A stretch of DNA of 64,000 bases, from positions 15,476,001 through 15,540,000 of the forward strand of contig CM034412.1 of the NCBI GenBank assembly GCA_019925095.2, read 5' to 3'. The stretch's first letter is position 1. Every line of letters begins with the position of its first letter. Under the pieces are notes generated by a model. It was not told the DNA's origin, searched no databases, and was given only the letters and a program-made list of their open reading frames with translations. Positions 2,089-40,190 of the stretch are shown here, in pieces. Made by a program: the position numbers and the translations under genes. Source of the DNA: Dendrolimus kikuchii. Taxonomy: Eukaryota; Arthropoda; Insecta; Lepidoptera; Lasiocampidae.

Positions 2089-2100
2089 TGTCACGTGATG
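2089..2100 (+). CDS. Cassette gene, 12-nt microexon B1
   Basis: The exon is TGTCACGTGATG, between acceptor ACGTTGCAG and donor GTAAGA. In phase 1 it reads Val-Ser-Arg-Asp, the Val codon being completed by a G from the previous exon and the last G starting a Gly codon. It is nearly identical to the 12-nt exon at 30457 (TCTCACGCGATG), and the first bases of the two downstream introns are also alike. A 12-nt exon alone is weak evidence. Support comes from the same structure recurring at 8632, 30457 and 36519 and from in-frame joining to the exon at 3262. Confidence 0.55.
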
Positions 2101-2882
2101 GTAAGATTTATTTAGTTTCCTTTAGTTTTCATTAATGTAATGCTTCTTAGTAGTCCTAAAGTTGTTTAGGCTCGTAACAGTACTCATTCCCAACTGACCA
2201 TTGCACGATAATCCGTCCAAATTAAAATTATACTACGAACTGTTAAAATGGTGGCTGTCCGGGGTGCTCTTGAAAGAAACTGATTTATTTGCTTAAAAAA
2301 TAATTAACAATCTTAATTATCACATGAAAGAGATACAAGTTTGCGGTATTAGAAACAAAATTATTGTCTGTGCTTCTACTAGCTCCAAAACTAGTATGAA
2401 TTGATCTTTGGAGCTACTAGTGCTCTCTGCTGCATTGTCTACTTATATAATAACAAAGTTAGTGCTCTAAACACTCTTCCTTGGCTAAAGATTTATTATC
2501 AAACAGTTGTTGACTGTCGGCAATTCAGCTTTTTTTATCACAGTAAGTAATACTTACAAAACAATTTTATATAAGAAATTTTTAATCATATAATTTGCAA
2601 TTAATTATTTACAAAAAAGAACTCCGAAATTCTAGGCTAGAGTAGATGGCGCCACAGGTCGCTCTTCTTATACTGTTGACGTTTTGATATTGAAATATTT
2701 TTTTACAATTTCTGTTCATTGAATAATGAAGTCTCAACAAATGTATTTAAAGTATATTGTCCAATTGCTACCCCCACAAAACTATTATCAGTAAATTTCA
2801 ATTCGATTACAAGGACTTCGCTTATTTTTATATATTTACATATACGTACATAAATAGATGTATAGTAACAATGTGTAGAGGT
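2101..2882 (+). other. Intron sequence of the cassette gene
   Basis: AT-rich sequence between microexon B1 and the RTE-1 insertion. No coding potential or recognisable repeat is seen, apart from a short AGATGGCGCC motif near 2643 that recurs elsewhere in the window (for example near 12250). Confidence 0.35.
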
Positions 2883-3150
2883 ACATACATACATACATAC
2901 ATAACTTCACGCCAGTTCCCTTGCGGGGTAGGCACGAACAACAGAGCGCCATTTAGGCTTATTCTTACACACCTCACTTGCTTCTTTGAAATTCATAGCT
3001 CTTGTCATGCACACTCGTCTGTTCTTAAGGCTCCTGACATCACCTTCTGCTAGTACACGATCAATTTAATCATGGAAGGTGTGTCGTGGCCTTCCACAAC
3101 TTCTGCATCCATCCACTTTTGCATTATATATCTGTTTAGTCATTCTTTCT
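2883..3150 (-). mobile_element. RTE-1 LINE 3' fragment
   Basis: (CATA)n followed by the complement of the RTE-1 C-terminus (GRPRHTFHDQID region) and 3' UTR. 5'-truncated. Lies in the intron between exons B1 and C1. Confidence 0.8.
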
Positions 3151-3261
3151 GTGTAGAGGTAATAAAATTTATGTCCTAAACTATATTGACCACGTAGGGA
3201 ACGTTGGGTGCGTTCCCTACTACTTCTATGTAACCCATTTTTTTAACTTTTCACTTAACAG

Positions 3262-3321
3262 GAAATTCATCTGTTTATTTCAAATATGAAAACGAATCTC
3301 GGAAAATGGCAGTTTTTGATC
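3262..3321 (+). CDS. Cassette gene, exon C1
   Basis: 60 nt between acceptor TTTTCACTTAACAG and donor GTAAGT, phase 1 at both ends. It encodes Gly (completed from exon B1) then NSSVYFKYENESRKM and AVFD. It is clearly related to exon C5 at 30920 (GESSVYYNFIKESRKF): both have the pattern G-x-S-S-V-Y-[FY] ... E-S-R-K. The final C joins with CT of exon A1 to make Pro. The acceptor has a good pyrimidine tract. Function unknown. Confidence 0.65.
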
Positions 3322-3385
3322 GTAAGTACCTTTACGAGTTTTTGTTGAAAACAAAAAATGAACTTCTTCAGATAAGTTCTCTGTG

Positions 3386-3595
3386 GTTGGGCGGACTAAG
3401 CCTTTGCTGGCCGAACTTGCAGGAACGCAGAGGTTCGATACGTAGCATGGTAAATTTCGGAATCGAATTTTCTGTTACTTACCATGGTCTGGGTGTCCGG
3501 GATCGGCGCCAGAGTGGTCCGTTGTACTCATAACACAAGCGTAACTTGCTTAGCTTGGGGATATATAATGTGTGTGTTTGTCTGCCGATTTAAAA
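3386..3595 (+). mobile_element. SINE-G copy (tRNA-like SINE)
   Basis: Contains a B-box-like GGTTCGATAC near 3433 and the family 3' block TTGGGGATATATAATGTGTG. Related copies lie at 60150 (+), 47488 (-), 44085 (-) and 40690 (-). Confidence 0.6.
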
Positions 3596-4137
3596 TAAAT
3601 CTAAAGGGGGTGACCCTACTGGTTGGAGGAGCGAGATGGAATACACCTCCGTCTCAAAGGAAGATCTTTCAGCGAGGCTAATGTTGTTCCTCGCAGGCCT
3701 AGGCCCGATCTGTTATATTTGAAATTTCGTATCTTCTATCTATCTTTGTGTGTTTCGGGAAAAGTTTGTGACATCAATTATTGCACAGCGCCATCTATTG
3801 GCTTGTAAGTGTTCCACTACAAATCTATGAAATTACCCATTTTCCAAACTCCCGATAAACATTCTAGATAAAACTCCCAAATGATTATACTGTATTAGGA
3901 GATATCACATTTTAATACAGTCTTTAAGAACTACGTGTTTTGGTAATCAATACTCCGGCAAATGCTCAGTAAGCAAATTTATTTAAAACACAGTGTCAGT
4001 TGCTAGGTTTTAAAATTGCCCAGCTGAGAAGTTTAGCAGACATTTGGTACATTTGTGATGTATGATAAGAAGAATAGAGTAGAAGAGATGTATATAGTTC
4101 ACCTTTACATTCTGTATTACTGTGTATCTTTAAACAG
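3596..4137 (+). other. Intron sequence before exon A1
   Basis: Mostly AT-rich sequence with a GC-richer patch at 3605-3710 that may be an old retroelement piece. No coding exon recognised. The last bases (CTGTGTATCTTTAAACAG) form the acceptor of exon A1. Confidence 0.35.
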
Positions 4138-4266
4138 CTTGGCGCTGGAGTTCTACGCGTCCACCGGGGTTCTTCTGGTTGAATAAACTGAAGTATCTGA
4201 TTGAACATATCTGGAAACTGTACGGTGAAGAAGGTCTTGATTATCACAGGAAAGACATGTTGAAAG
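4138..4266 (+). CDS. Cassette gene, exon A1 (Trp-containing helical exon)
   Basis: 129 nt between acceptor TATCTTTAAACAG and donor GTTAGC, phase 1 at both ends. The core is WLNKLKYLIEHIWKLYGEE, followed by GLDYHRKDMLK. It aligns with exon A5 (31477) and exon A3 (25922) on a Trp, the Leu three or four residues later, a hydrophobic helix pattern and a Gly about 16 residues after the Trp. It is one codon longer than those two. The donor GTTAGC is not ideal but keeps phase 1. The predicted segment is an amphipathic helix; no family is recognised with confidence. Confidence 0.65.
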
Positions 4267-4390
4267 GTTAGCCTTTGCTAAAGCCAGGCGCGGATCCACC
4301 GTTGTTGGCACGATGGGCTTGCTTGCCCACAACCCTAATAGACATGTGACGTCACACTACGGTCTATTGAGCTCGATAGGCTTGTGATAT

Positions 4391-4864
4391 TGTTACGAGC
4401 TACAGGACTCGAATTAAAAATGCCGTTGGAACTACTATAGAATTTATTAGAAGTATACAAACACTTATAACATAGGTACAAATACAACTAGACACTACTA
4501 GTACAAACTGCACGATTCAATAACATGCGCAGAGTCCGTCACTATATCGCTTATCGAATGTACGTCTTGCTAGTATCTTAATCGCCGCTTGACTGCCCCA
4601 CCCCTACGTTCGAGCATTGTTTTATACTAAACTATACAATACACAATCGATTGCGGGGGCTGGGTTCTTCCAAGAAAATGTACCTAATTTGCACACCTGC
4701 GAACGGCCAACATGTTGAAAAAAATAACAATAAGGATTAGTTCGACACTAATGACAGCCATAAAACAAGTAGATAAACAATAGCATGTTTGTGTTAATTA
4801 TAAATTCTAAACACAAAGTAAACAAGACAGGCAGCTGTGCGTTTATCTTCGACGGCATGTAACA
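4391..4864 (-). mobile_element. Solo LTR, LTR-T family
   Basis: 474 bp with TGTTACGAGC at one end and GTAACA at the other, flanked by a 4-bp target duplication ATAT (4387-4390 and 4865-4868). Same length as the copy at 22307. No internal region adjoins it, so it is a recombined solo LTR. TG...CA ends with a 4-bp duplication fit Ty3/gypsy-type elements. Confidence 0.7.
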
Positions 4865-5121
4865 ATATTATATCCAATGCCTTAATGAAATTTAAAAAAG
4901 CAAAGTAACATTCTACAGTTTTATTAATTTACTAGTGTTCGCAATTGCGTAACGTTTCATCCATCAATTTATTGATGTATAGTGCAATTAAAGACTATTG
5001 TCAATACATGAACGTGATGCTATGTAAATACGTATAGATGATATCGCTGTTAGAGCTGCCGATATGATTAGGCATTTGTCTAAATCATCAAAAATGTCCA
5101 ATCTTATATACGTGTAAATAT

Positions 5122-5560
5122 TGTTACGAATTTAGCGGGACTCGAATTAAAATGATGTTGGAATTATTATAGAGTTTATTAGAACTATAAAAACACGTAT
5201 AACACAGGTACAAATATAACCGAACACAACAAATCGATACGTAATGCAGAAGGTCGTAATTCAATAAACCGCGCAAAGTCCGTCACTAATAGATTATCGA
5301 CTGTACACACCTCTCACTTTGATCGTGGTTCTCGCTCGACTGCCCCCTCCCTCAATCAGGCCATCGTTTTATACTGCACAAATGCAATGTGCCCGTATCG
5401 TAGTCGACGTAATCCGAAACACCTGGCTAACGAGTCGGCCATAAATGAGTACAATAAAACAATGGGCTGTTCTCTAGAAACGTATGCCAATAAATAAGTA
5501 AGCAAAAGAAGACGATCATAAAAGAATTACAATTAGTTCAAATGCCGACAGGTAATAAAA
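5122..5560 (-). mobile_element. Solo LTR, LTR-T family, truncated variant
   Basis: Begins TGTTACGAATTTAGCGGG and follows the LTR-T plan. Its far end stops at the ATGCCGACAGGTAATA block found near the start of the 60813 copy, so about 35 bp are missing. It directly abuts an RTE-1 fragment. Confidence 0.6.
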
Positions 5561-5574
5561 TGTGTTTCTTTCAG

Positions 5575-5880
5575 ATATACATACATAAATAACTTCACGC
5601 CAGTTCCCTTGCGGGGTAGGCATGAACAACAGCGCGCCATTCAGGCTTATTCTTACACACCTCACTTGCTTCTTTGACATTCATAGCTCTTGTCATGCAC
5701 GCTCGTCTGTTCTTAAGGCTCCTGACATCACCTTCTGCTAGTACATGATCAATTTGATCATGGAAGGTGTGTCGTGGCCTTCCACGACTTCGGCATCCAT
5801 CCACTTTTGCATTGTATATCTGTTTAGTCATTCTTTCCACATGCCCGAACCACCGGAGCATTCCTTTCCTTACCTTCACC
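5575..5880 (-). mobile_element. RTE-1 LINE 3' fragment
   Basis: Reads on the - strand as KGMLRWFGHVERMTKQ..., the RTE-1 C-terminus, with a small deletion (the HDER codons after ERM are missing) and a short (TATG)n tail at 5575. Confidence 0.8.
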
Positions 5881-6145
5881 TAGCTATAATATATTATTAA
5901 TATGAATCATAGCAAGGCATATTACGACATATATTCCATATAAATTTTCGAGTGACCGCACACGCAGCTATAATATATGTTTCTATGACATCACAAAAAT
6001 ATGTCGACATTAATATCTCAGTATATTTTGGCATATTATACCGCAGACCGAGCGAGGGCAAAATATATATTACACTATAGCTCCGGTGTGTGGTAGCTTG
6101 CTATACAATAATTTATATCTCGATATATTAATATAATTATAGCTA
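5881..6145. mobile_element. AT-rich MITE
   Basis: Imperfect terminal inverted repeats: TAGCTATAATATATTATTAA at the left and TTAATATAATTATAGCTA at the right. 265 bp, no ORF. It inserted at the truncation point of the RTE-1 copy. Superfamily unclear. Confidence 0.45.
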
Positions 6146-6600
6146 CGTCTGTGACGGGCTTAAAATCTTGGTCAGGGCCTCAAACTACATCATGAGTGAG
6201 TTCATACTGCGACTCACACTTAGCCGAGTTTCGGGTGGCTGTGGTCATAACTTTTTTAGGTCTGGATCCACGCCTGACTAAAGCCCGTATTCTAAAATTC
6301 ATTAGCAAACGAAACTTTGAATTGATTGTTCTTATACATTTTAAAGTACTATCGAATGCTCTTCAGGTTACAGGGGTGCGTGGTATTTTAATTTTTGGTT
6401 ATTGTTCTTAAATATAGTACGGTTCCATTTATGCTTTTAGTTAAATTAATATAGATAGATAGATAGCACAAGAAAAACTTATAGCCTAAAAATATTCTAA
6501 ATGTGCACAATGGGCGGTCTTATCGCTAAGAAGCGATCTCTTCCAGACAACCCGTAATTGATATAATACGGTATCTATGAGTAATTAGGTCAAATCGACA
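6146..6600. other. Unassigned intron/intergenic sequence
   Basis: No gene recognised. A LINE 3'-tail-like motif (AGAAGCGATCTCTTCCAGAC) near 6530 is inverted relative to the copy near 650. Confidence 0.3.
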
Positions 6601-6880
6601 GATATCGTATTTATAATAATCGCAAGAAACTCTTCAGCAAAGACGCCTAGCTCTAATAATTTTATGTAACATTACAATGGGTGGGAGGTGGGTTTTCTCT
6701 TCAAGCCACAACATATTGTGAAGCGGTGGAGATTAGACTAGGCTCCCATAGAGTAAATAATGACCATAGACAAAATTAAAAGTAAATAATTAAAATGCAC
6801 ACGGCGCCACCGTAGGCTAAATAAAAACTTTAACAAAACTCATTGGCACTTAACATCTTTGTCTTCCATGATCACGGGTA
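6600..6880 (+). mobile_element. Penelope-like element, 3' UTR fragment
   Basis: Matches the 3' part of the element at 59084 (AAACTCTTCAGC, CTCCCATAGAGTAAATAAT, TCTTCCATGATCACGG). The coding part is missing. Confidence 0.6.
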
Positions 6881-7040
6881 TTGAAAAGTCGGAGAGGCCC
6901 GCCCCTTGCTGGGGTGGGCCCACGCTAGCCGGGGTCGCGGTGGGTATTCCGGCTTCTCTAGCCGGCGAGTCCCACACTCCCCCGCCGAAGTCTCCCCGGC
7001 GGGGGGTCCGCAAATGGATTTCCCCTTGTAAAAAAAAAAA
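6881..7040 (+). mobile_element. GC-rich retroelement 3' piece with A-tail
   Basis: A strongly GC-rich block ending in an A11 run at 7030-7040, unlike the AT-rich surroundings. No protein domain is visible; origin inferred from composition and tail. Confidence 0.35.
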
Positions 7041-7046
7041 GGGAAA

Positions 7047-7552
7047 AATCACTCACCAAGAAGAAAAGAGTGATATATATCTTTTTGATAGAAAGATATA
7101 TGTCACTCTTTTATATCTTTAACTCTTTATCTTTACAGTGAATAGTTTCAGTGTCAATTGCAGACAAGATGAGTTATTATCTGTGAGTGATATACTGAAT
7201 ACTGATAAACTGATATGAAAAAAATATAAACAAATAGAGTGAAGAATATAATAAAATTAATTACATTAAAACAAAATTGCACCATAAAACTAATGTTACA
7301 ATTTATTTTGGCTTGCTATTATATTCGGTTTCCTCGTTCACTTACTACGCATGCGCAGTGCGCGGGCTAATCATTCTTTCTCTTTTCTTTCTAGTCTAGT
7401 TTCTTCTCATTCGGACCTATAGTCATCGCGTGGAACAGGAATGAACTAAAGAGTTAAAGATATAAAGACACATTTTGAACGCAAGTGATATACAGATCTA
7501 ATCACTCTTCACGTCGGATATATATCTTTTGAGTTAATCACTCAGGAGTTAC
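7047..7552. mobile_element. TIR-like MITE with hairpin ends
   Basis: The left end holds a near-perfect hairpin (7067-7110: GAGTGATATATATCTTT paired with AAAGATATATGTCACTC). The right end repeats these motifs (GGATATATATCTTTTGAG, AATCACTC). TTTAACTCTTT and AAAGAGTTAAA pair across the element. No transposase. Boundaries approximate. Confidence 0.4.
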
Positions 7553-7894
7553 ACACCGCTATTTAGGGTTATTCCTAATTAAGTCGCATTTAATCATAGT
7601 CAGTAACACTAACTGTGGGGCGCTGTCAGTCCACGGGTAGTTGTCTGGTTCTATCGTTATGGACTGTATGAGAGAGATATGACTCAGATCCTCGCAGTAG
7701 AGAAGCAAAAGCTCCACCAGCCTTGAGATCAGTCTTCTCCTGGCTCGATTCAGGTTGCACTCGGGAACAGCCACGCCACTAAGGTTCCGCTTGAGAACTA
7801 TCACTTTGTACACAGATTAGAAAACGGATGAGAGCACGGCGGGATGTCGTTGAATGTTGGCAACGAAGTCTCAAAAGGCTGCCTATACCCTCCT
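7553..7894. other. Unassigned sequence, target of a retroelement insertion
   Basis: An 84-codon - strand frame (7559-7813, contains SHISLIQSITIEPDNYPW) is open, but no homology or splice pattern was recognised. The stretch ends in the target duplication of the next element. Confidence 0.25.
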
Positions 7895-8373
7895 TTTTTT
7901 TTTAACCAGGGGAAACCCGATTGAGGACTAAGCCGCGACAAGGGCAGAACCTTGGTGGGATAATTCGCGACCTAGTGTGGGATTCGCCAGATCGGGGGTG
8001 GCACTAGCGTGCCCGGTCAGAACTGGTGCCATGCTATTGCCACTCCCGGTTAGGGATACCCACTAAAACCCCTGGATGATCCGTCCTTCGCCTTATGCCA
8101 GGGCTACGTGAATGCGGGCTTCCCAACTCCGCGTGCCCTGGTAGGCGTGGGCCCCCCTCACTGGGCCTCTTCCTATGCCAGGGGACGTATCCCCTGGCTA
8201 CTTCTTGGTCTCGTTCGTGCGTGGGGCGGTCTGTAACGCGCCTTACGGGAAGAGAATGAGCGCGCGCGGAACACTCGCGTTGTCATCTCGACGGCATGTG
8301 CGGGTGAGTGAGAACCCCTATACCCCTAGGGGCTGCTTACGGTGGCTGAAGGTCCTGGCTGGCCCTCCGGCGC
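7895..8373 (-). mobile_element. GC-rich retroelement insertion with 16-bp TSD
   Basis: A 479-bp block whose left end is poly-T (complement of a poly-A tail), flanked by the exact duplication CTGCCTATACCCTCCT (7879-7894 and 8374-8389). This is the signature of target-primed retrotransposition on the - strand. No RT motif is retained; probably a 5'-truncated LINE or a SINE. Confidence 0.65.
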
Positions 8374-8631
8374 CTGCCTATACCCTCCTGCGTTAACCTT
8401 CGCCTCACACACCAAGAGGGTATACAGCACAATTTATGGAGAGATGTGGTATCTACTTTATAGTAGGCAACGACGTAACACTAACGCAGGTGGCATTATA
8501 TATTGCATTTCAGTAACTTTTATATTATTTTCATAAAACCTTAAATTACAAAAAAAGCTAGTCACTTCCCTATAAGATGATTTATATAGTAATTTACAAA
8601 CATAGTAATAATAAAAAAAATAATATTGCAG

Positions 8632-8643
8632 TTGATAAAAATG
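8632..8643 (+). CDS. Cassette gene, 12-nt microexon B2
   Basis: TTGATAAAAATG between acceptor TAATATTGCAG and donor GTAAGT. Joined to exon A1 it reads Val-Asp-Lys-Asn, and its last G starts a Gly codon completed by exon C2. It resembles B7 at 36519 (Val-Asn-Glu-Tyr) in length, phase, the G|T junction to Val and the T-rich start of the downstream intron. The acceptor is A-rich, which lowers confidence. Confidence 0.5.
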
Positions 8644-8712
8644 GTAAGTTATTTCTTTTTTTTAATACTTTCCATTCTACGTAGTTCATCGGAGGTCGTC
8701 TTTATAAAAATA

Positions 8713-9042
8713 CTAGCGGCCGCTGCAGACGTTGTCCTGCTCTGAAAAAATAAAAATATAAGACCCGATCTCAGCGCCACCTACCGGTTCTAATTGTGAA
8801 TCTAAACCATCCGGGAACCCACTCAAACACACAAAAACAAAATCACCAAAATCGGTCCCGGTGATTAGGAAGATTCTAGAATCCGATTTCAGCGCCACCT
8901 ACCGGTTCCAACGGAATAAAAAGTATCCTATATCCGTCTCCTGGTTCTAAGCTACCTCCCCACCAATTTTCAGCCAAATCGGTAGAGCCGTTCTTGAGTT
9001 ATAAATAGTGTAACTAACACGACTTTCTTTTATATATATAGA
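8713..9042 (-). mobile_element. Non-autonomous Helitron (complete)
   Basis: On the - strand it starts TCTATATATATAAAAGAAAG and ends CTAG after a GC-rich hairpin, inserted between A and T as Helitrons do. 330 bp. Same family and length class as 19720-20051. Contains the repeated block GCGCCACCTACCGGTTC. Confidence 0.75.
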
Positions 9043-9049
9043 TGCTTTA

Positions 9050-9210
9050 CATACATACATACATACATAACTTCACGCCAGTTCCCTTGCGGGGTAGGCA
9101 CAGACAACAGAGCGCCATTTGGCTTATTCTTACACACCTCACTTGCTTCTTTGACATTCATAGCTCTTATCATGCACGCTCGTCTGTTCTTAAGGCTCCT
9201 GACTTCACCT
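9050..9210 (-). mobile_element. RTE-1 LINE 3' fragment
   Basis: (CATA)n tail followed by about 140 bp of the RTE-1 3' end. Confidence 0.8.
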
Positions 9211-9290
9211 GAATGCTTTACTTTCCATTATTATTTAAATTTTAAATATAGATCTTTTATTGTTATTATCTATGATCTTGTATAGCATAC

Positions 9291-9503
9291 TAGCGGCCCG
9301 GCGCGGTTTCACCTGCACTCTGTCCCGCTCCCGTGGTAAATAGCGTCATGTTGCATAGCCTATGACACTCCATAGCTTTCAAACAGTAAAAGAATTTTTA
9401 AAATCGGTTTAGCAGATCCAGAGATTACCCCCTACAACGTCACAAACTCACAAACTTTACCTCTTTATAATATTAATAATAAATATTATATATATAGTAT
9501 AGA
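9291..9503 (-). mobile_element. Helitron fragment
   Basis: CTAG followed by a GC-rich stem (GCGGCCCGGCGCGG) at the left; a TATATATAGTATAGAT block forms the 5' side at the right. A different subfamily from the 8713 copy. Confidence 0.5.
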
Positions 9504-9540
9504 TAATTATTTTAAATTTCGTAAATTTCATGACATTTGT

Positions 9541-9805
9541 GTGTCCCAACCTCGAAGCGCTCAGTTTCGATTCCTAGCCGGAATGCATGCACCACTTAGG
9601 CAGTGTTCTGACCTAATGTGCCTATTGTTACAATTATTACGTACCTAGTAACGGTGAAGGAAAACATCGCGATGCAGCCTGCACATCGAGACAACCGATG
9701 CGTCAAACTTGCCAAGCCGCTTTGGACAATCGTGGCGTGTATACTGACCATTCCTCAATAGTGGGAGGCCCCAGCCGAGCAATGGGACGTTAATGTGATC
9801 TACAA
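9541..9805 (+). mobile_element. tRNA-derived SINE (tSINE)
   Basis: B-box-like GTTTCGATTC near 9568, family core CACATCGAGACAACCGATG, and 3' block GGGAGGCCCCAGCCGAGC. Same family as 52319. Confidence 0.65.
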
Positions 9806-9941
9806 CGGACAACTTTGAAGCCGATTCGGACTAGAGAAATAATTGAAAGTTGTTTTACGAATTTGGCCTATCGAGAATCAAATGCGGGACCCCTGCGTCT
9901 CAGTATTATTCAGCCCATTGACCCTTTATAGTAATTTTTAG

Positions 9942-9995
9942 GCAAAGCTGTTGTAGATTTTATTAACAAAAAAAGAACAAAAGCCACGAAGAATG
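9942..9995 (+). CDS. Cassette gene, exon C2
   Basis: 54 nt between acceptor TAATTTTTAG and donor GTAAGC, phase 1-1. With the G from B2 it encodes GKAVVDFINKKRTKATKN. It aligns over its whole length with exon C7 at 37829 (GEVIVDYLKNKKRYKSGK), also exactly 54 nt: G-x-x-[VI]-V-D-[FY]-[IL]-x-[NK]-K-[KR]. Equal length, phase and motif at sites 28 kb apart, with acceptor and donor in each case, make chance unlikely. Confidence 0.65.
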
Positions 9996-10921: not shown

Positions 10922-10995
10922 AATATATTAGTTTATAAATTCGTTGTAATTATATTAAAAATTGAAGTAACTTTTTAACATTAACAAAAAAATGT

Positions 10996-11471: not shown

Positions 11472-11564
11472 TTTCTTATACTGTAAAATTGTTGGAGGGA
11501 TGGCGAGGTATCCTAAAAATGCTTGTCGAATGTGTAGAGTCAGTGGATGAAATGTTCTTAAACC
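11472..11564 (+). CDS. Cassette gene, exon A2 (candidate)
   Basis: 93 nt ending at a consensus donor (AAACC|GTAAGG), phase 1-1. It reads [V]SYTVKLLEG then WRGILKMLVECVESVDEM and FLN. The Trp, the following Leu residues and the L-V pair match the helix of exons A3 and A5. The acceptor (AATTTGCTAAG) has a weak pyrimidine tract and the exon is shorter than the 126-129 nt of the other A exons, so the 5' border is less certain. Confidence 0.45.
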
Positions 11565-11801: not shown

Positions 11802-11825
11802 GCATTGATATGTTTGTTACAAAAA
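11802..11825 (+). CDS. Cassette gene, exon C3 (candidate)
   Basis: 24 nt after a strong acceptor (CTATTTTTATTTCAG) and before GTTAAC, phase 1-1, encoding IDMFVTK after a shared codon. Position (downstream of an A exon) and phase fit a shortened C exon, but no motif is conserved and the donor is weak. Confidence 0.3.
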
Positions 11826-12375
11826 GTTAACCAATGAGACATTCTTCATAATATATTTATTTTAAAATAAGAGAGAGAGAGAGAGAGAAGTATGAAACAA
11901 ACTCCCAACAACATGTTTTCTATTTAACACGTATTAATATGTATATAGTATATAAATACATGCTTATAATACACAAATGTAATATTAAATGTATTTATTA
12001 TATCGTAGAGTACTTAAACCAGATGTTCTATGCGTAATAAGGTTTGCAACTTTCCTTTATTTGGTATAAAACATAATCCTGACTAACAGATGGCGCTTAA
12101 ACTTGGTTATGTTTACAGAGAAAAAACATTGTATATTAAGTTTGAATAAAAACTCCTAACATAAAACATTTTTTAATTCTTAGTTCCCTAAATGTGGCAT
12201 AACCAATTATAAAAAAAAAACAAAAAAATTGTTTTAATTCTTACACGACTAGATGGCGCTACAGGTCTGCTTTGTCTTGCCTTTTAAGTTTTATTATTTA
12301 AAAAATACTTTTTAGACTAAATCGATTGAAAGTTTCGATAAGTTTAACTTTAATACTTGAATAGTTTAATAAGAC
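11826..12375. other. AT-rich intron sequence with a (GA)n microsatellite
   Basis: A (GA)n run lies at about 11871-11888. The rest is AT-rich, with AGATGGCGC motifs near 12090 and 12250. No gene recognised. Confidence 0.35.
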
Positions 12376-18771: not shown

Positions 18772-19109
18772 TACGGAGTGTGGTACAAAATACTTTTTGC
18801 TAGTCGATTGTGATTCCATAAGTAGTATTCTTCTTGCAAGCTATCAGGTGGAACTCCAAAAAGCCAGCCTACCAAAACGTAAAAAAAAAAGTTAAATGCA
18901 ACGCGGCGAGGTAGCAATTAATTTTCCAATTTGTTTTTTCAATTAAATTCTGTCAAACTCCGTTGAACAAACTTATTATCTTTTCGAAATAATTTAAAAT
19001 GTATATTGCATTTCTCATTTTAAACTTGGTAAGTCTTTTTTAAAAGCAGTCGTAAGTCAGTGGTTGAAAGAAAGAAAAAAACATTTATTTAGAACAAGAT
19101 ATAAAAAGT
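18772..19109. other. Unassigned AT-rich sequence
   Basis: No coding sequence or repeat family recognised between SINE-A copy 4 and the RTE-1 fragment. Confidence 0.3.
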
Positions 19110-22210: not shown

Positions 22211-22306
22211 AATTAAAAGCACACTAATGTTTATTTCAGGTTGTAAACATTTTTTCGTTTGAAGTACCAAGTTACAGATCAAGTAAGATTTTACTAATAT
22301 TACTAT

Positions 22307-25921: not shown

Positions 25922-26047
25922 AACCTCTAACCCGATCTTCTGAAGCAGATCCAAGATGGATACCAGCGCTTCAGTCCAGAATTAAGTGGCTCGTCTCAAC
26001 TCTAGGCTATAATGCAGCCAAGTCGTTTATAAGTGACTTGGTAAACG
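25922..26047 (+). CDS. Cassette gene, exon A3
   Basis: 126 nt after acceptor GTTATATTTTCAG, phase 1-1 if the donor is AACG|GTGGGG. The alternative donor 7 nt earlier (CTTG|GTAAAC) looks better by consensus but gives phase 0. The core is WIPALQSRIKWLVSTLGY, then NAAKSFISDLVN. It aligns without gaps to exon A5 (also 126 nt): Trp at the same position, Leu four residues later and Gly sixteen residues after the Trp. Its last G joins AT of exon B4 to make Asp. Confidence 0.65.
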
Positions 26048-27490: not shown

Positions 27491-27529
27491 ATACTGAAAT
27501 TGCTCTGGGAGTGTCTTTACATGTCGAAG
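27491..27529 (+). CDS. Cassette gene, exon B4 (39 nt)
   Basis: Acceptor ATTATCTATTTACAG, donor GTGAGT, phase 1-1. It encodes [D]TEIALGVSLHVE and a split Gly. The alternation of hydrophobic residues suggests a beta strand. It takes the B position (after an A exon) but is longer than the 12-nt B exons, like B6 at 34785. Confidence 0.6.
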
Positions 27530-30456: not shown

Positions 30457-30468
30457 TCTCACGCGATG
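30457..30468 (+). CDS. Cassette gene, 12-nt microexon B5
   Basis: TCTCACGCGATG between acceptor TTTTTTTATGTTGTAG and donor GTAAGT. Reads Val-Ser-Arg-Asp like B1 at 2089, with the same phase and similar intron starts. Joins exon C5 through a GGC Gly codon. Confidence 0.58.
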
Positions 30469-30919: not shown

Positions 30920-30967
30920 GCGAGTCAAGTGTTTACTACAATTTCATCAAGGAATCTCGCAAGTTTA
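30920..30967 (+). CDS. Cassette gene, exon C5
   Basis: 48 nt after acceptor TTTTTTTTCTACAG, donor GTACGT, phase 1-1, encoding GESSVYYNFIKESRKF. Strongly similar to exon C1 (3262): G-x-SSVY-[FY] and ESRK-[MF]. The pyrimidine tract is the best in the set. Its last A joins AT of exon A5 to make Asn. Confidence 0.7.
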
Positions 30968-31476: not shown

Positions 31477-31602
31477 ATGATCAAGGATACGATGCAGCCG
31501 CTGAGCCAACGTGGCTGGAAGACCTCAAGACCCTTGTGCGAGAGATGATATCGAAGTACGGCAAAAAACACTTAGATTTGATGCTCAAGCCTGTGATTAA
31601 AT
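31477..31602 (+). CDS. Cassette gene, exon A5
   Basis: 126 nt, phase 1-1, between acceptor GTCAATAG and a strong donor (AAAT|GTAAGT). It reads DQGYDAAAEPT then WLEDLKTLVREMISKYGKKH then LDLMLKPVIK. It aligns gap-free with exon A3 (same length) and with A1. The acceptor is weak; an alternative 16 nt upstream (TTTGTATCAG) breaks the phase. An inverted copy lies at 53094-53219 with a His-to-Arg change. The last T plus CC of exon B6 makes Ser. Confidence 0.65.
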
Positions 31603-31636
31603 GTAAGTTTGCTTATAACGTTAATATTATAATACT

Positions 31637-31778: not shown

Positions 31779-31889
31779 TTATAATACTTACTACATTTAA
31801 TACAATAAAATTATGGTTACTTTAAAAGTTAAACTATACTATAAAATAAAATGAAAAAATTAAATAATTAAACGAAATAAAAGATCTTG

Positions 31890-32130: not shown

Positions 32131-32154
32131 TATTTAAAGATAAAAAAATGTAGT

Positions 32155-32480
32155 CTAGATCGCTGCCGGTGGGGAGCGTTCCTAAAATGCTGGCCGCATT
32201 TCCACGTTGTATTGCAACGCTGATCCGTTATCCTAAATATAGGCCAGCCTTTTGGTTAAGCGAGACTTCTTTCAATCGTCTTGAAGGGTCTCGATAAAGT
32301 TGATAAGCCTCACGCCTCCATGGCGCCAAGTCTCAACCCTGAAAGCTACAAATTTATATCCATCAGCGATGGATGCATATTTGTGGCGTTTCAGGGTGTC
32401 TGGATCTGTGGCAGATCCTCCAGCAATGACGGCTGTGTTTGGAAGATAAGAAGCCGCTAACGTATTAACATACCGCCGAC
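32155..32480 (-). mobile_element. LINE-X fragment
   Basis: The - strand has the degraded IAIQRGNAAS-like block and the upstream GPW-like region. Confidence 0.5.
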
Positions 32481-33583
32481 TGCTTTGCTTATGGACATAA
32501 TTTTAGTTCGAAACAAGCGCAGTTTTTATAGCACTCGCGATGAGGATGCAGCCCTGACACTCTAGATGGCGAAGATTGCGAATATTTCCACAAAATACGA
32601 AATGCGTCCCTTTTGAGGCGAATTCAACGAACGAACTTGCGAATGTGTCTGTACGCGACGGACGCAGCGAATGACTGTCGCCGCAATTTACTACCCTCAT
32701 TTGCTGCGACAAAAAAAATACTAATCTAATCCAAACGAAAACTGTCGCTAATTCAACAAATAAACATATACTAATTACTAACTAACTGTGAGAGATGAAA
32801 TATATTTTCTAAATTATTGTGGTAAAATAAGGGATGAGTGCGAAATCACGCATTTATAGAGCGCGGTGTGGGGCTTGATGCGCCCGAGACGTTCTACGGC
32901 CATTTTGATTCGCCATTTTTCTCTCTGTATTTATTGCGCGCACCATCAACCACAGTTAGGGTTGCCAACCATACTTTATAATAACGCATCCTACTTTATT
33001 CTTAGTAAATATACTTTATACTTTTGCATAAAAATAAAGAATGTGAAAATACTCTATTTCCAATATTCACTCTGATGCGTAAAACGAAATATTTATATGG
33101 ATAATTACTGAACTATTATCAATCCAGTTTTCACTGAAAGAGTTTATTCAGCAATGAATCTAAAATGGCGAGAAGAACATGACATCTATAAATTTAATAA
33201 AAAATGAATTGTTTGTTTATTTAAATTTAAATTGGGAATGTAAAGATAGCTTCGAAAAATTTAAGGATAATGAAAAGTTGTTAGTGTTTGCAAGAAGCAC
33301 ACAAAATTAGGACATTTTTCTTCCAAATACTTTATTTCTTCCCTACTTAAAAAATGCAATACGTTATTTTTCTCAAAAATCGTTGGCAACCCTTACCACA
33401 TTCAACATGAACCTCGTTGAGTAAAATTAAATATTGTGACTTTATTCTAGTATGTAAAACCGTTTTCAACTTGAAGCTTAATATTTAATGGATAAAAAGT
33501 GTATTTTTCTCAAAAACCAGCACAAACCATCCACACCAACTATTAAATTGTATTAAATCAAATACAATTGAGTAATAAAACTA
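32481..33583. other. Unassigned intron sequence
   Basis: AT-rich. A short GC-richer part (32510-32700) shows no recognised protein on either strand. No exon matching the A/B/C types was found here. Confidence 0.3.
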
Positions 33584-34644
33584 TAGCTTGACCGCAACCG
33601 TTGTATCGCGTCCTAGGTATGTGCGCGGCGAGACCGGGGAGAGTACCGGCCGTTCCTTTCTGTCAGTCGGCTGCCAACGCTTACGGCGGTAGCTAGTGTT
33701 GCTTGCACCGGACAGTGTGTATCGGATGTACATGAAATAAATATTCCAAGATGGGTCGTGCGTTATCTCGTGATGTGAATAGATCTTACTTTCTAAAATC
33801 TAGCACACAAACTATTATTTACCTTAACACATGATCCTTTTTCACGATTTTCACGTTTTGCACTGATTGATTACAAATAAAAGAAATAAAGGAAGAGGAA
33901 GAACTACACTATTTACTGTTATTTGTCTCTCGTCGTGCATAGGTTTCGCATGTACTATGAAAGAAATTAGGTAATTAAATGGACTATTTAGGTATACTTA
34001 TTTAATTAATTCCCTATCCAATTTAATACGTACGACTGGCGTGTAAAGCTAAAAATGTTCAAATAAGTAATTTTAATAATTTTAGACTTTACCGGTTGTA
34101 CCTTAAAACTGATAAATAATAAAAAAAAACTTGAGAGGTGTCAAGGGACACCCGGATGGAACGAATTTCCTTTCGATTAATTAGTGAAGGAATTGTAATA
34201 AAATTTTATTTTTTTAAGTTATAATAATATTATTTTTTATTATTTATTATGTACAAAAAACCTGTATACACTCAACAAAAATAATCGTCGCGACACCACA
34301 CTGTTCAATGCGAAATAGAAAGACGAAACGAAAATAACTGGCTTGCTTTCTATGAGAGAGAGAGACAGACAGAGAAACACGCGCACGCCGCACGGCTTGC
34401 AATAGCTTACTATAGCAAAAAGTGTCGTGACAACTTTTCGTAAGAATTTTTTCCATCTAGCCCCCTTTCACAACGCGCGATAAGGAACTTCGTTCCAACA
34501 ATTTGTATATCGGAAAATTAAAAAAAAATGATATCGTAAAATCCGCCCGGCAAATCGATATCGTGTAAACTCGTGCTCTTTCTTACCTGTCCCCCGCCTC
34601 GCCGCGCGTTCCTAGAGCGCGGTACAGCGGTTGCGGTCAAGCTA
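33584..34644. mobile_element. DNA transposon relic with TA target site
   Basis: 1061 bp with terminal inverted repeats TAGCTTGACCGCAACCG at both ends and TA duplications outside (33582-33583, 34645-34646). GC-rich ends surround an AT-rich middle. No transposase recognised. TA duplication suggests the Tc1/mariner/IS630 group. Confidence 0.6.
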
Positions 34645-34784
34645 TAATGAAAGGACGGTTTGAACACTCGGATTATTTTACAATTCACCCGTTATATTAC
34701 AAGCGAATGTTTGCGTTGCAGGAGCACCTTAAAGTGAATCTATTCGTTGGAGAAATAAATGTCTGAAACTTGATATGTTTTCAG

Positions 34785-34826
34785 CCGTTGAAAAGAAAAA
34801 TGGCGTTACAATAACTGACATTGATG
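34785..34826 (+). CDS. Cassette gene, exon B6 (42 nt)
   Basis: Acceptor GATATGTTTTCAG, donor GTATGT, phase 1-1, encoding [S]VEKKNGVTITDID and a split Gly. The pattern resembles a beta strand-turn. It follows exon A5 as B4 follows A3. No 12-nt homology is evident. Confidence 0.6.
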
Positions 34827-35015
34827 GTATGTATTAAAGGCAAGTGACGCCAGGCATGTTATGTGTGCGAGTTTAGGAAATTATGATATTGAAGCAAATA
34901 AATTGGCTTCCTAGAATTTTACTCGAAAATTGTCTGTCGGTAATTTCAAATAAATGGCGAAAATGCTTTTTACACGAAGCTTAACTATAAATTGTCGTTT
35001 TTGGAATTTTTCAAA
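34827..35015 (+). other. Intron sequence after exon B6
   Basis: AT-rich; a C exon expected here by cassette order was not found. Confidence 0.3.
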
Positions 35016-35027
35016 GCACAGAAAATA

Positions 35028-35409
35028 CATACATACATACATACATACATAACTTCACGCCAGTTCCCTTGCGGGGTAGGCACGAACAACAGAGTGCCAT
35101 TTAGGCTTATTCTTACACACCTCACTTGCCTCTTTAACATTCATAACTCTTGTCATGCAAGCTCGTCTGTTCTTAAGACTCCTGACATCACCTGCTAGTA
35201 CACGATCAATTTGATCATGGAAGGTGTGTCGTGGCCTTCCACGACTTCTGCATCCATCCACTTTTGCATTGTATATCTGTTTAGTCATTCTTTCATCATG
35301 CATTCTTTCCACATGCCCAAACCACCGGAGCATTCCTTTCCTTACCTTCACCCCGACACTCTATTTCAGACCAACTCTCTTTCTTACTTCGGTATTACGA
35401 ACGCGGTCC
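35028..35409 (-). mobile_element. RTE-1 LINE 3' fragment with 12-bp TSD
   Basis: Flanked by GCACAGAAAATA (35016-35027 and 35410-35421). - strand KGMLRWFGHVERMHDERMTK frame, with one codon missing near RVLAGD. Confidence 0.88.
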
Positions 35410-35536
35410 GCACAGAAAATAATAATAATTAATATGGCTAGCAACAGCATTGAGAACACACTTTTAATTTCTTCATACATATACGTTTATATAAACATCG
35501 TTTGTATGTTATATTTATATATATATGAACTAGCTG

Positions 35537-35768
35537 AAAGAATGACTAAACAGATATACAATGCAAAAGTGGATGGATGCAGAAGTCGTGGAAGGCCACG
35601 ACACACCTTCCATGATCAAATTGATCGTGTACTAGCAGAAGGTGATGTCAGGAGCCTTAAGAACAGACGAGCGTGCATGACAAGAGCTATGAATGTCAAG
35701 AAAGCAAGTGAGGTGTGTTGTTCGTGCCTACCCCGCAAGGGAACTGGCGTGAAGTTATGTATGTATGT
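35537..35768 (+). mobile_element. RTE-1 LINE 3' fragment with 12-bp TSD
   Basis: Flanked by ATGAACTAGCTG (35525-35536 and 35769-35780). Opposite orientation to the neighbouring RTE-1 copy 130 bp away, so the transcript could fold back. Confidence 0.88.
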
Positions 35769-35773
35769 ATGAA

Positions 35774-36176
35774 CTAGCTGACCCAGCAAACTTCGTACCG
35801 CCTCAGAATCAATAAATAAAAAACTTTGATTTCTGAACGACGGGACGAACATCAAACGTTTGACATTCGAATCCAAAAAAATATTGTAAAAAAAAACTTC
35901 ACTTTTAAATTTAATTTGATTTCTGAACGACTTTTAAATTTGATTGATTTCTAAACGACGGGCCGAACATCAAATGTTTGACAGGTAGGAATAGTTTCTA
36001 AGGAAAAGCGAAATTGTATTTTTACTATATTCCAAGCAGTTTTTTCATATTTACTCACCTTTTAAACCTTCCCTGGACTTTCACCAATAATTCAAAACCA
36101 AAATTTGCCAAATCAGTCCAGCCGTTCTCGAGTTTTAGCGAGACTAACGAATAGCAATTGATTTTTATATATAAGA
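35774..36176 (-). mobile_element. Helitron (target of the RTE-1 insertion)
   Basis: CTAG end at 35774 on the - strand; 5' side TTTTTATATATAAGA near 36176. Contains CCAGCCGTTCTCGAGTTTTA like other copies. Confidence 0.55.
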
Positions 36177-36411
36177 CTAGCTGTGCCCGCGACGTCGTCC
36201 GCGTGGAATTTGCTTTCAAAATCCTCCGATTTGAACATTCTTCATTGGCGCTCCGCTCCTATTGGTCTTAGGATGATATATAGCCTAGAGCCTTCCTCGA
36301 TAAATGGGCTATCCAACACTGAAAGAATTTTTCAAATAGGACCAGCGGTTCCTGAGATTAGCGCGTTTAAACAAACAAACAAACTCTTCAGCTTTATAAT
36401 ATTAGTATAGA
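36177..36411 (-). mobile_element. Helitron, second subfamily
   Basis: CTAG plus GTGCCCGCGAC at the left, GCTTTATAATATTAGTATAG at the right. Same family as 44488 (+) and 46705 (-). Directly abuts the preceding Helitron. Confidence 0.65.
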
Positions 36412-36518
36412 AGAAAGAGATAATAGTGAAGCCAAAAGGAATATAAATGATGTCATATTCACTACTGTAATTTTAGTAAAATATTTAGTACTTAGTAGTA
36501 ATTACTGTGTATTTACAG

Positions 36519-36530
36519 TCAATGAGTATG
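36519..36530 (+). CDS. Cassette gene, 12-nt microexon B7
   Basis: TCAATGAGTATG between acceptor CTGTGTATTTACAG and donor GTAAGT, reading [V]-Asn-Glu-Tyr and a split Gly (completed by GA of exon C7). Parallel to B2 before C2. Confidence 0.55.
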
Positions 36531-36745
36531 GTAAGTGACTTTGTTTTTTTTTGTAAGATTTTACTTGAATATGAATTAATAAATATTTATCCAAAAAAAC
36601 TATGCTAATTAATTAATATGAGCAAAGTTTCTCAAAAAAGCATAATATGGATGAATAGTGTCAGTGTGTGGCGGCACTATGTGCACAGCACTAGATGCGT
36701 GTCACATCACTAATCAAAAGGAAAAAAACAATTCTGTCATAGAAA

Positions 36746-36972
36746 TTTTTGGCGGGAACCGAAAGAGGACGTTGTGCTGTGCAGTTTTATTTTCTAAAAA
36801 TGTGTAAAATTACTTTAAAATGAACAATAGTTGTAGGATATTGATAGTTTTTGAGTAGTAATTATGTGTTTCGTGAGAAATGTGAACTGTATAGTCAAAT
36901 GTGGCCTTTTGAGTTGTCACAAGAACTCCGATGAGTGGCACCAGCTGATAACCTACAGTTCAGCTGTGCTAC
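36746..36972 (+). repeat. Direct repeat, unit 1
   Basis: About 227 bp starting TTTTTGGCGGGAACCGAAAG, repeated at 37429-37654 with roughly 85-90% identity by eye. No TIR or tail is visible. Confidence 0.7.
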
Positions 36973-37018
36973 ACATAGGCTTAAGAAAATGAATAAACTA
37001 TATTGTAAATGTTTATCC

Positions 37019-37330
37019 GGCAGGAACGGAGAAAGAATACAATTTCCTGCGTTGGGGCGGCCTGTCGTAAGAGGCGACTTAATAATCCACAGCCAGGTGG
37101 TAGGGCATTTGCCCGACTGGATGGCTACCACCCCTGGTCAAGAGCTTGCCGCCATAACAACCTTGAGTTGTGTTCCGGCATTAGTGACCAGGTTCCAGTT
37201 TCCCTTAAGAGAGCAGCAGTGCATTTGTAGCAACTTTGGTGTTGCAAATGTCCATAGGCGATGGTAACTGCTTTCCATCAAGTGGGCCGTCTGCCTGTCT
37301 GCTGATCTCCTGCAATAAAAAAAAAAACTA
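37019..37330 (+). mobile_element. SINE-A copy 11 (near full length)
   Basis: From GGCAGGAACGGAGAAAG to TCCTGCAATAAAAAAAAAAA. Lies between the two direct-repeat units. Confidence 0.88.
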
Positions 37331-37428
37331 AGATCTGGCTTAAAGGCCTAGCTGCCAAGCCATAAACCTAAATAAATAAATATTATAATTTCCGTTAGCA
37401 AAACCGTCAAACATTGAAATAAACGGAG

Positions 37429-37654
37429 TTTTTGGCGGGAACTGAAAGGAGACGTTGTGCTGTGCAGTTTTATTTTCTAAAAATGTGTAAAATTACTCTA
37501 ACATGAACAATAGTTATAGGATATTCATAGTTTTTGAGTAGTAATTATGTGTTTTGTGAGAAATGTGAACTGTATAGTCAAATGTGGCCTATCGAGTTTT
37601 CACAAGAACTCCGTTGAATGGCGTTAGTTGTAGCCTACAATACAACTGCGCTAC
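37429..37654 (+). repeat. Direct repeat, unit 2
   Basis: Second copy of the repeat at 36746-36972, in the same orientation within the same intron. Suggests a local tandem duplication or two insertions of an unknown repeat. Confidence 0.7.
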
Positions 37655-37828
37655 TATACGAAGACTCATCAGAATTGGCTGTATGGACTAAAGATTCCTT
37701 TGCCTGCCTTTGTGGCGAATACAACTACTACTACTACTTGAAATATACTTGTTTTTTTTTAAATTTAGGACCGAGTATCGACTGTTCAAATGTGGCATTT
37801 ATTGATTCTATTATTTATTTATTCCTAG

Positions 37829-37882
37829 GAGAAGTTATAGTGGATTATCTCAAGAATAAAAAACGATATAAATCTGGAAAAA
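37829..37882 (+). CDS. Cassette gene, exon C7
   Basis: 54 nt between acceptor TTATTTATTCCTAG and donor GTAAGT, phase 1-1, encoding GEVIVDYLKNKKRYKSGK. Matches exon C2 in length, phase and sequence (V-D-[FY]-[IL]; N-K-K-R). Basic C-terminal half. Followed 2.3 kb later by the terminal exon. Confidence 0.68.
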
Positions 37883-37989
37883 GTAAGTATTAATATTAAG
37901 ATTTTTATGCGCATTTTTAAATGTACAGGTGTATAGGGATATTGTAAATAAATGCGTGTTCTAGTAAACCAAGATTATTTATTCACTCA

Positions 37990-38640
37990 TACATGTGCAT
38001 TATACTGTATGTCTTTCAAGACCACGGGCCATAAAAATGGCCCGGACTTTTGGGGGGCTTGCGTGGGGCCATGGGAAGGCCAACACGTAGAGGCCCCTTG
38101 ACAAATTTAATGTAAATGTGGCGTGACACTGATCGGCGATTATCCCTGTCCACACCATATAGTAATGCACCCAAGGACAAGCCCCGGCCAGTGTAGGACT
38201 ATTGTGGGAAATGAGGACAAAAAGTACCGGGCTATTGTAGTGAACTGCTAATGGTACTAGGGGTCTGGGAATATGGGGACTATGGCGTCTGCCCGTCGCA
38301 ATGTTCAGGGAACATAGAAAAATGGGCAGACAGTGACTCGCCACTCCCTGCATGGGCCCCAAAAAATGCCATAAAGACGGGGGCAACATGGGTGTGAGTG
38401 GCTAAGGGGTGTCGAGAGGTGGGCTGCAGGTTCACCGAAGCTACTTCCGACGTTAGGCCATTTATCACTTCCACCCCTGGAGCTTGAGTCTTAGCTCTAG
38501 CGATCTCCACTCCGTGCCGGCTGGTTAAGGCAAGCACGGAGGCGGGGGCCTTGCCTTGGCCCCCGGAGTCAGGTACGAGGTGTCGGTACTCACCTAAGGC
38601 TTCGCCACAAAGCCCCCCTGCGGGATCAAAGCCCCTCTGC
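37990..38640 (-). mobile_element. GC-rich retroelement fragment
   Basis: GC-rich block with CTAAGGCTTCGCCACAAAGC near 38600. It shares GGCCAAGGCAAG-type and GCTAGAGCTAAGACTCAAGC motifs, inverted, with 54098-54850. No RT motif; perhaps a LINE 5' UTR. Confidence 0.45.
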
Positions 38641-38819
38641 GGAACGTGTGCATTATATTATTACGATGAGTAACGCGTCGCGGGTGTGAATGATGGTAGA
38701 CAACTGCCACTCTGTGCGCGTCGCATGCCATTCGATGCAATTCGCTGAGTAGGCAGTGTCTCTACATTTTAATCTTAAAAAAATCATACTAGAGGCAACA
38801 TTAAACAGGCCGTGTTTCT

Positions 38820-39230
38820 ACTAAAACAGCCGTTCTCAATCTTTTTTACAAGCTGTCTATTAACTCGCAATGGATGTAAGTTCGGGTGGAATATTGCAAG
38901 GTAAATTTAGGACCAACTTTTCGGTTTCCGATTGAGCTGAAAGCACGAATATGTATATCGCGTGACAATGCAAGAATATGGTGCAATGGAGCTGATCTGA
39001 TGATGGAGTCGGAAGGTGGCCATAGGAACTCCTGTACTAAACAAGATACACCCGTCGTGTTTGGGCTCGTTTTACTTGTCTTGGCTAGCACTCTGCTGCT
39101 ACATGATATCCAGGATCTCAAAAGCTAGTATTTAAATACCTTTTAAAAAAATCTTATTTTACTAGAGCCGCATTGAGGTATTAGATGGGGTACCACGGAC
39201 CAAAGTATTATTTAGATCTTTTTTTAATGC
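38820..39230. other. Open on both strands, unassigned
   Basis: The + frame 38886-39128 has a hydrophobic stretch (VVFGLVLLVLASTLLLHD) and the - frame 38846-39121 is equally open. Neither has flanking splice sites or a recognised family. Confidence 0.2.
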
Positions 39231-39244
39231 TAGGGTAGATAAAG

Positions 39245-39400
39245 TACAGCAGAGAGGTCCACCTGATGGAAAGTGATTTTTTTATTGCGAAGCTGGCAAA
39301 TAGGCAGTCGGCCCAGCTCATGGAAAATAGTTACCGTCGCCTGTAGACGTTTGCAACACCAGGGGCGTAGCCAACGCAATGCCAGCCTTTAAGAGAGATA
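39245..39400 (-). mobile_element. SINE-A copy 12 (divergent)
   Basis: GGCAAATAGGCAGTCGGCCC and TTTGCAACACCAGGGGCG mark a diverged, truncated copy; an extra fragment of the same block lies at 39240. Confidence 0.6.
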
Positions 39401-39499
39401 GAGGAGTTACAATACATCGTAAATATCGTACAAAAGACAGTTAGATCAAGGCTACGTTTCACGTCGATATCCTGTGAGAACGTGGTATTACACTGATCA

Positions 39500-39677
39500 A
39501 GTCGGCCCTCAGAACTAACTCCTAAACGACTGGAACGATTTCGATGAAATTTTTTGTGTGTGTTCAGGTGGATTCGAGAAAGGTTTAAATTCACAATTGC
39601 ACCCGGTAGGTGGCGCTGCAATCGGGTTCTAAATTTTATTTTTTCAAGGCAGGACAACGTCTACCGGGACAGCTAGT
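39500..39677 (+). mobile_element. Helitron 3' fragment
   Basis: GCACCCGGTAGGTGGCGCTG, then GGCAGGACAACGTCTACCGG and CTAG|T. Confidence 0.6.
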
Positions 39678-40137
39678 AATATTATAAAAGTCTAAAAATG
39701 CCGTGTCTGTATATTGAAGCATTAAAAAAAACAACTGGATTAGACTATATAAACGATGGAGAACACGAAGCAATTTATTTTAGATTTCTTATCTGTTTGC
39801 CTGTTTGTCGGTTTGTCTGTTTGTTCAGGTAAAAACTACTGGGCAAACCGCATCGAAATCACAATGCGGTTTTTGCTGAACGACAGCAAATTCTTAGACT
39901 TAATATCTGAGCTATTTTTTTATCTCGGGAATCTTGCGGGAATATCTCTGGGAATCATTGAAAATGCCAAAAATAAATTAATTCCAATATGATTTTTTTA
40001 CTGATCGTTAGCAAATGTAATGTAATAAAATGTATGATATATTTTATCCCGGGAATCCCGCGGGAATTTCAAGTGAAACATGGACGAAGTTCCAGGAATA
40101 TCCTAGTTTATATATAAAATATTTTTTCTCTCTACAG
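39678..40137 (+). other. Intron before the terminal exon
   Basis: AT-rich. Holds a 78-codon frame (39756-39992) of low complexity at its start (TGTTTGTC-type repeats), judged spurious. Confidence 0.3.
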
Positions 40138-40190
40138 GACTTTGAAGAAACTAAAAGTGACTACAAAATTTTGTAAATAAAATATGGATT
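40138..40190 (+). CDS. Cassette gene, terminal exon with polyA signal
   Basis: After a strong acceptor (TTTTTTCTCTCTACAG), GACTTTGA joins the final A of exon C7 to give Arg-Leu-stop (stop 40143-40145). AATAAA lies at 40176-40181. Phase 0 would instead give DFEETKSDYKIL and stop. Phase 1 is preferred because every other exon is phase 1, so the protein would end ...YKSGKRL. Coordinates include about 45 nt of 3' UTR. Confidence 0.5.

Follow-up and report, generated by a model that had tools for sequence, protein, structure and literature searches.

Two tandem moth genes of recurring small exons, with a 12-nucleotide exon predicted to code a hairpin turn

Schistosome micro-exon genes (MEGs) code for secreted proteins and have symmetric short exons separated by long introns, with alternative splicing proposed as a source of variation (PMC5825161, PMC10526429), and symmetric exons with lengths of 6-36 bp hold approximately 80% of their coding sequence (PMC5825161). 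Aphid bicycle genes are insect genes divided into numerous small internal exons that, with few exceptions, start at codon position 2, and sequence comparison finds few homologs of them (PMC9168663). We analyzed a locus of recurring small exons in the moth Dendrolimus kikuchii, located in a stretch of 64,000 nucleotides (the window; GenBank assembly GCA_019925095.2, contig CM034412.1, positions 15,476,001 to 15,540,000 of the forward strand), and all coordinates below are those of the window. The locus is two tandem genes, not one, and the exons are real. We suggest that both genes probably encode small secreted proteins, are likely duplication-born, and contain a 12-nucleotide exon for a predicted hairpin turn that may be optionally skipped.

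Features that recall MEGs or bicycle genes are the symmetric internal exons (8 of 9 in gene 2, the exception being the 43-nucleotide exon S2, and 6 of 6 in the visible part of gene 1), a hydrophobic start that may be a signal peptide, the 12-nucleotide exons and the failure to find relatives by sequence. Of the nine internal exons of gene 2, eight begin at codon position 2, the bicycle pattern (S2 is entered in phase 0). However, exons of at most 36 nucleotides contribute 30+12+12+8 = 62 of the 540 coding bases of gene 2, compared with approximately 80% in MEGs, and the moth genes, from a different phylum, repeat their exon types as a cassette of fixed order. Bicycle proteins carry paired cysteine-tyrosine-cysteine (CYC) motifs, whereas the 179 residues of gene 2 include no cysteine, hence no CYC motif. 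The genes described here also have fewer exons than bicycle genes and belong to a moth. The bicycle gene-structure classifier, with the published coefficients and cutoff of 0.72 (PMC9168663), gave a linear value of -3.62 for gene 2 with its second 12-nucleotide exon, B5 (probability 0.03), and -4.94 without it. The 62 of 540 micro-exon bases, the lack of cysteine and the negative classifier value thus disfavour membership in either class, and the resemblance is at most in outline, in uniform phase and short exons.

Structure of the two genes and their public models

The exons with their splice borders were extracted and the chain was translated. An in-frame TAA closes the exon at 11802-11830 and a new ATG exon opens at 18999, and therefore the locus, originally predicted to be a single gene for a protein of roughly 280 residues in its visible part, was split into two genes. 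Gene 1 shows B-C-A-B-C plus a stop in the window, to 11830, with its 5' end outside the window; its visible translation using every window exon is 128 residues. Gene 2 is complete at 18999-40145 on the + strand and comprises S1, S2, the cassette A-B'-B-C twice and a stop exon, its 11 exons forming a single open frame of 179 codons.

Gene 1
2089..2100, + strand: micro-exon B1 (xSRD), 12 nucleotides, first gene 1 exon in the window; left out of K1T71_013751
3262..3321, + strand: exon C1 (GNSSVYFKYENESRKMAVFD); present in K1T71_013751
4138..4266, + strand: exon A1, helical by likeness to gene 2 A; present in K1T71_013751
8632..8643, + strand: micro-exon B2 (xDKN); left out of K1T71_013751
9942..9995, + strand: exon C2 (GKAVVDFINKKRTKATKN); present in K1T71_013751
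11472..11564, + strand: doubtful exon A2, 93 nucleotides, open in phase 1; left out of K1T71_013751
11802..11830, + strand: terminal coding exon D1 (IDMFVTKS, stop TAA); present in K1T71_013751

Gene 2
18999..19028, + strand: start exon S1 with the ATG (MYIAFLILNL), 30 nucleotides; codes the beginning of the likely signal peptide
22240..22282, + strand: exon S2 (VVNIFSFEVPSYRS), 43 nucleotides, phase 0 in and phase 1 out
25922..26047, + strand: cassette 1 exon A, 126 nucleotides; outside the originally predicted coordinates
27491..27529, + strand: cassette 1 exon B', 39 nucleotides; predicted helix end and first hairpin strand; outside the originally predicted coordinates
30457..30468, + strand: cassette 1 micro-exon B3 (VSRD), 12 nucleotides; predicted hairpin turn; in the public model
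30920..30967, + strand: cassette 1 exon C3, 48 nucleotides; predicted second strand
31477..31602, + strand: cassette 2 exon A3, 126 nucleotides
34785..34826, + strand: cassette 2 exon B', 42 nucleotides
36519..36530, + strand: cassette 2 micro-exon B5 (VNEY), 12 nucleotides; absent from the public model
37829..37882, + strand: cassette 2 exon C5, 54 nucleotides
40138..40145, + strand: terminal coding bases ending in the stop TGA, phase 1 at entry; followed by AATAAA at 40176

The internal exons from 2089 to 11564 (12, 60, 129, 12, 54 and 93 nucleotides) and from 25922 to 37882 (126, 39, 12, 48, 126, 42, 12 and 54 nucleotides) are all multiples of three, stop-free and in phase 1 at entry and exit, including all eight cassette exons of gene 2. 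The original prediction correctly recognized a real host gene in which exon types of phase 1-1 recur. All 13 of its exon starts (11 listed, with 34785 and 40138 taken from its junctions) have an AG acceptor at the predicted base, and all 12 internal exons have a GT donor, a length divisible by three and an open phase-1 frame. The exon list is real as far as it goes and lacks the gene 2 exons at 18999, 22240, 25922 and 27491. The cassette, first read as three exons (B-C-A), has four, A-B'-B-C, with lengths of about 126-39-12-48 nucleotides, and 34785-34826 belongs to the separate type B'. Exon A2 is considered doubtful because of its acceptor score of -0.5, its low likeness to the A exons (z at most 2.0) and its absence from K1T71_013751.

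Both genes are already annotated, as hypothetical proteins of D. kikuchii whose names carry no family or function. K1T71_013753 (175 residues), the single protein returned for gene 2 by protein search, equals gene 2 minus the exon 36519-36530 at 175 of 175 residues, including the 12-nucleotide exon B3 and omitting the 12-nucleotide exon B5. The visible part of gene 1 led to K1T71_013751 (127 residues), two locus tags away, the best local alignment covering 67% of the query at 94%; C1-A1-C2-D1 make up its residues 38-127 (90 of 90), and it omits B1, B2 and the exon at 11472. The 37 residues before these comprise a hydrophobic start and a stretch resembling B'; a six-frame profile scan of the window turned up nothing convincing for them, and they are presumably coded to its left. 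According to PMC8589036, the D. kikuchii gene models draw jointly on RNA-seq transcripts, on homology and on ab initio prediction; no statement on the support for these two models in particular was noticed there. The public proteins include 9 of the 13 originally predicted exons and imply five of the nine proposed junctions: 3321-4138 in K1T71_013751, and 30468-30920, 30967-31477, 31602-34785 and 37882-40138 in K1T71_013753. The four that are not implied (2100-3262, 4266-8632, 8643-9942 and 36530-37829) each touch a 12-nucleotide exon omitted by the public models, which miss three of the four B exons (B1, B2 and B5).

The genes were originally described as unrecognised, which holds insofar as no named family was found, although both stand in public databases. 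Protein searches, which require shared exact 5-residue words and scored 77, 3 and 289 candidates (the last a profile search), returned only K1T71_013753 and K1T71_013751, with the coverage of moth proteomes in the database being uncertain. Pfam listed no family above the cutoff for gene 2 (aRib 16.1 versus 27, SapB_2 12.1 versus 21) and none for the visible part of gene 1 or K1T71_013751. None of the 16 rows of the PDB sequence search was convincing (best E 0.052), and the Foldseek fold search of PDB with a low-confidence model gave 0 matches at E of at most 0.001 (best E 0.6). By eye, the B-C junctions were also considered as EF-hands, an idea dropped because Pfam gave no EF-hand row. No study of such a gene in Lepidoptera was among the literature titles listed, a search whose coverage stops short of subscription journals and preprints.

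Exon relationships and the history of the locus

Exon-pair likeness was tested against 2000 shuffles, with a lowest attainable p of 0.0005. Exons at corresponding positions in the two genes are strongly alike (C1/C3 z 5.0, C2/C5 z 6.3, A1/A3 z 5.8; each p 0.0005), while pairs crossing both gene and position are not (C1/C5 z -0.6, C3/C2 z 0.8), nor are C1 and C2 inside gene 1 (z 0.5). These comparisons indicate that the strong long-range likeness comes from gene duplication, atop an older internal duplication. The matches across 20-30 kb reported originally join corresponding exons of two duplicated genes. Internal cassette duplication is also supported by the comparison of the whole cassettes 1 and 2 of gene 2 (z 6.4, p 0.0005; exon A alone z 4.3), and it appears older and weaker in trace than the between-gene matches, which qualifies the original proposal. 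We suggest a history in which an old internal cassette duplication would have been followed by tandem gene duplication and by stretching of the introns by transposable elements. The stretching of the exon array by repeats, as originally noted, agrees with introns that hold many repeats.

Codons were compared over the alignable parts of the two genes (C1 over its first 15 codons; C2/C5 minus one codon; A1/A3 starting at the tryptophan they share). Replacement change is below silent change (proportions of differences pN 0.39 and pS 0.71; rates dN 0.54 and dS about 2.2, the latter near saturation). The protein had been called fast-evolving, for which the failure to find a homolog outside the species is indirect support; on the codons aligned, dN is below dS.

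The six-frame scan of the window, which read open stretches of at least 12 residues, used profiles of the exon types A, B' and C (both kinds) and of the start exons. The known exons and one further copy stood out, and the remaining rows were weak (best E 0.034), in a scan that very short exons could escape.

53094..53219, - strand: inverted isolated copy of exon A3, open, splice borders intact, 3 base changes (one H to R)

The copy is carried by a 601-nucleotide inverted duplicate (52961-53561 on the - strand, of 31135-31735 on the + strand, 97% alike), and the profile scan of the window found no other cassette exon near it. By eye, the duplicate has its ends inside repeated elements, which may offer a way for exons to be copied.

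The 12-nucleotide exons and the competing explanations

The motif YAG|T-N8-ATG|GTAAG, written after seeing the B exons, has four matches in the window, all of them B exons, with 0.05 expected. The length of 12 nucleotides alone is not beyond chance: the pattern YAG-N12-GTAAG occurs five times on the + strand (four are the B exons), versus a mean of 1.64 and a maximum of 9 in 100 shuffles. B1 and its flanks match B3 at 80% over 46 nucleotides (E 2.4e-4). The B exons draw support from their shared form, from this likeness including flanks and from the inclusion of B3 in K1T71_013753. The sequence 3' of the four B donors is rich in T (mean 0.59; the 61 GTAAG sites on the + strand, among them the B sites, give 0.31; permutation p 0.018 against 11 other exons, A2 left out), and such an intron might help the recognition of very short exons.

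Hydropathy indicates a hydrophobic N-terminus in gene 2 and in K1T71_013751, and S1 and S2 likely code the signal peptide of gene 2. AlphaFold2 was run twice, for K1T71_013753 alone and with K1T71_013751. Both runs gave, for cassette 1, helices at residues 37-52 and 54-72 and a hairpin of strands 74-80 and 86-92. Residues 80-83, which B3 codes, lie at the predicted turn; the mean predicted local distance difference test (pLDDT) of blocks 71-80 and 81-90 was 58 and 68 in one run and 65 and 70 in the other. We suggest with low to moderate confidence, and for cassette 1 only, that A forms the helices, B' and C the two strands and B the turn. The products would most likely be secreted, cysteine-free proteins of helix-plus-hairpin units. 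The B exon places D, N or Y ahead of a G found in all four copies, and its skipping would put E or D before that G where a B' exon exists. Inclusion or skipping of B would thus give a long or a short hairpin turn, and the shared phase of the cassette exons would let most exon combinations keep the frame; among the 256 exon subsets of gene 2, 224 keep it to the same stop.

The firm part of this account is the gene structure and the between-gene likeness; secretion, the hairpin turn and micro-exon switching are predictions. Several observations weigh against the optional turn exon in duplicated genes for secreted proteins. The absence of B exons from the public models may be annotation failure, not biology. 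The intron after the first A exon of gene 2 is richer in T (0.70) than that after any B exon, and 32 of the 256 exon subsets lose the normal stop. Some exon relationships are marginal or non-significant (C3/C5 z 1.9, p 0.048; A1 with the first A of gene 2 z 1.7, p 0.06; B' with B' in gene 2 z 1.05). No convincing second-cassette B' of gene 1 was found by motif, profile or splice scores in 4266-8632, where splice scoring gave three candidates, none alike to B', so B2/C2 would have no first strand, and in the public gene 1 model an A is missing from the first cassette. Secretion of the proteins, which we consider likely, is read from hydropathy, and the mean pLDDT values of the two runs are poor (47 and 49). 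In cassette 2 without VNEY no hairpin was modelled, and the C part is a helix in the K1T71_013753 model.

The same two genes may instead be spliced constitutively, the B exons being always included and missed by the public models, with no switch; we regard this as a serious competitor, somewhat short of an even chance. Gene finders and short-read aligners often lose 12-nucleotide exons, B3 is kept in the public model, and approximate splice scores of the B exons are good at the donor (8.7-10.2) and moderate at the acceptor (3.9-6.9). However, B5 scores near B3 (acceptor/donor 6.0/10.2 versus 6.9/10.2), yet only B3 is included in the same model. The optional exon is our preferred and probable explanation. 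Decaying or spurious models, formed of chance open exons in transposon-rich DNA, would agree with the many intronic repeats, with gene 1 lacking its second-cassette B' and with its public model lacking the first-cassette A, but are very improbable given a gene 2 frame intact across 11 exons, its 175 of 175 residues identical to an independent public model and the deficit of replacement change between the genes. We give equally little credence to a moth member or descendant of the schistosome-like MEG or aphid-like bicycle class: the hydrophobic start, symmetric exons, 12-nucleotide exons, lack of sequence relatives and codon-position-2 starts of nearly all internal exons are set against the missing cysteines and CYC motif, the classifier value of about -3.6 and the small micro-exon share described above.

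A bolder proposal, which we consider rather unlikely though worth stating, is a moth gene class, not met in the searches made here, that would have evolved independently of MEGs and bicycle genes and would code a modular secreted protein. Its 12-nucleotide exon, sited exactly at a beta-hairpin turn, would act as a loop-length splice switch, and transposon-mediated duplication, by shuffling same-phase exons, would add further diversity; the lone copy of exon A at 53.1 kb would then be an exon in transit. If the account with the optional turn exon holds, the small-exon, single-phase architecture known for secreted proteins of schistosomes and gall aphids would have arisen in moths too, and the locus would provide a small system for asking whether turn-placed micro-exons vary secreted proteins. 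Gene models of repeat-rich insect genomes may lose micro-exons, as in the omission of B1, B2 and B5 here.

Repeated elements in the window

Repeats are numerous in the introns. Between the two genes, 14501-17368 (+ strand) is an open reverse-transcriptase frame of 956 codons (RVT_1 E 2.4e-30) that looks like a non-long-terminal-repeat (non-LTR) element, with an endonuclease-like N-terminus scoring under the Pfam cutoff. A repeat of about 320 nucleotides, with inverted copies 86-92% alike, occupies many sites in the window, including gene 2 introns.

18450-18770: copy of the repeat of about 320 nucleotides
25073-25393: copy of the same repeat
26072-26391: copy of the same repeat
37020-37334: copy of the same repeat
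43561-43876: copy of the same repeat
49125-49446: copy of the same repeat
51619-51934: copy of the same repeat

A second long inverted pair, 12404-13024 and 59236-59856, extends over 621 nucleotides and is 93% complementary. By eye, 58500-59050 and 63430-63560 each resemble a mariner-type transposase fragment, one per strand.

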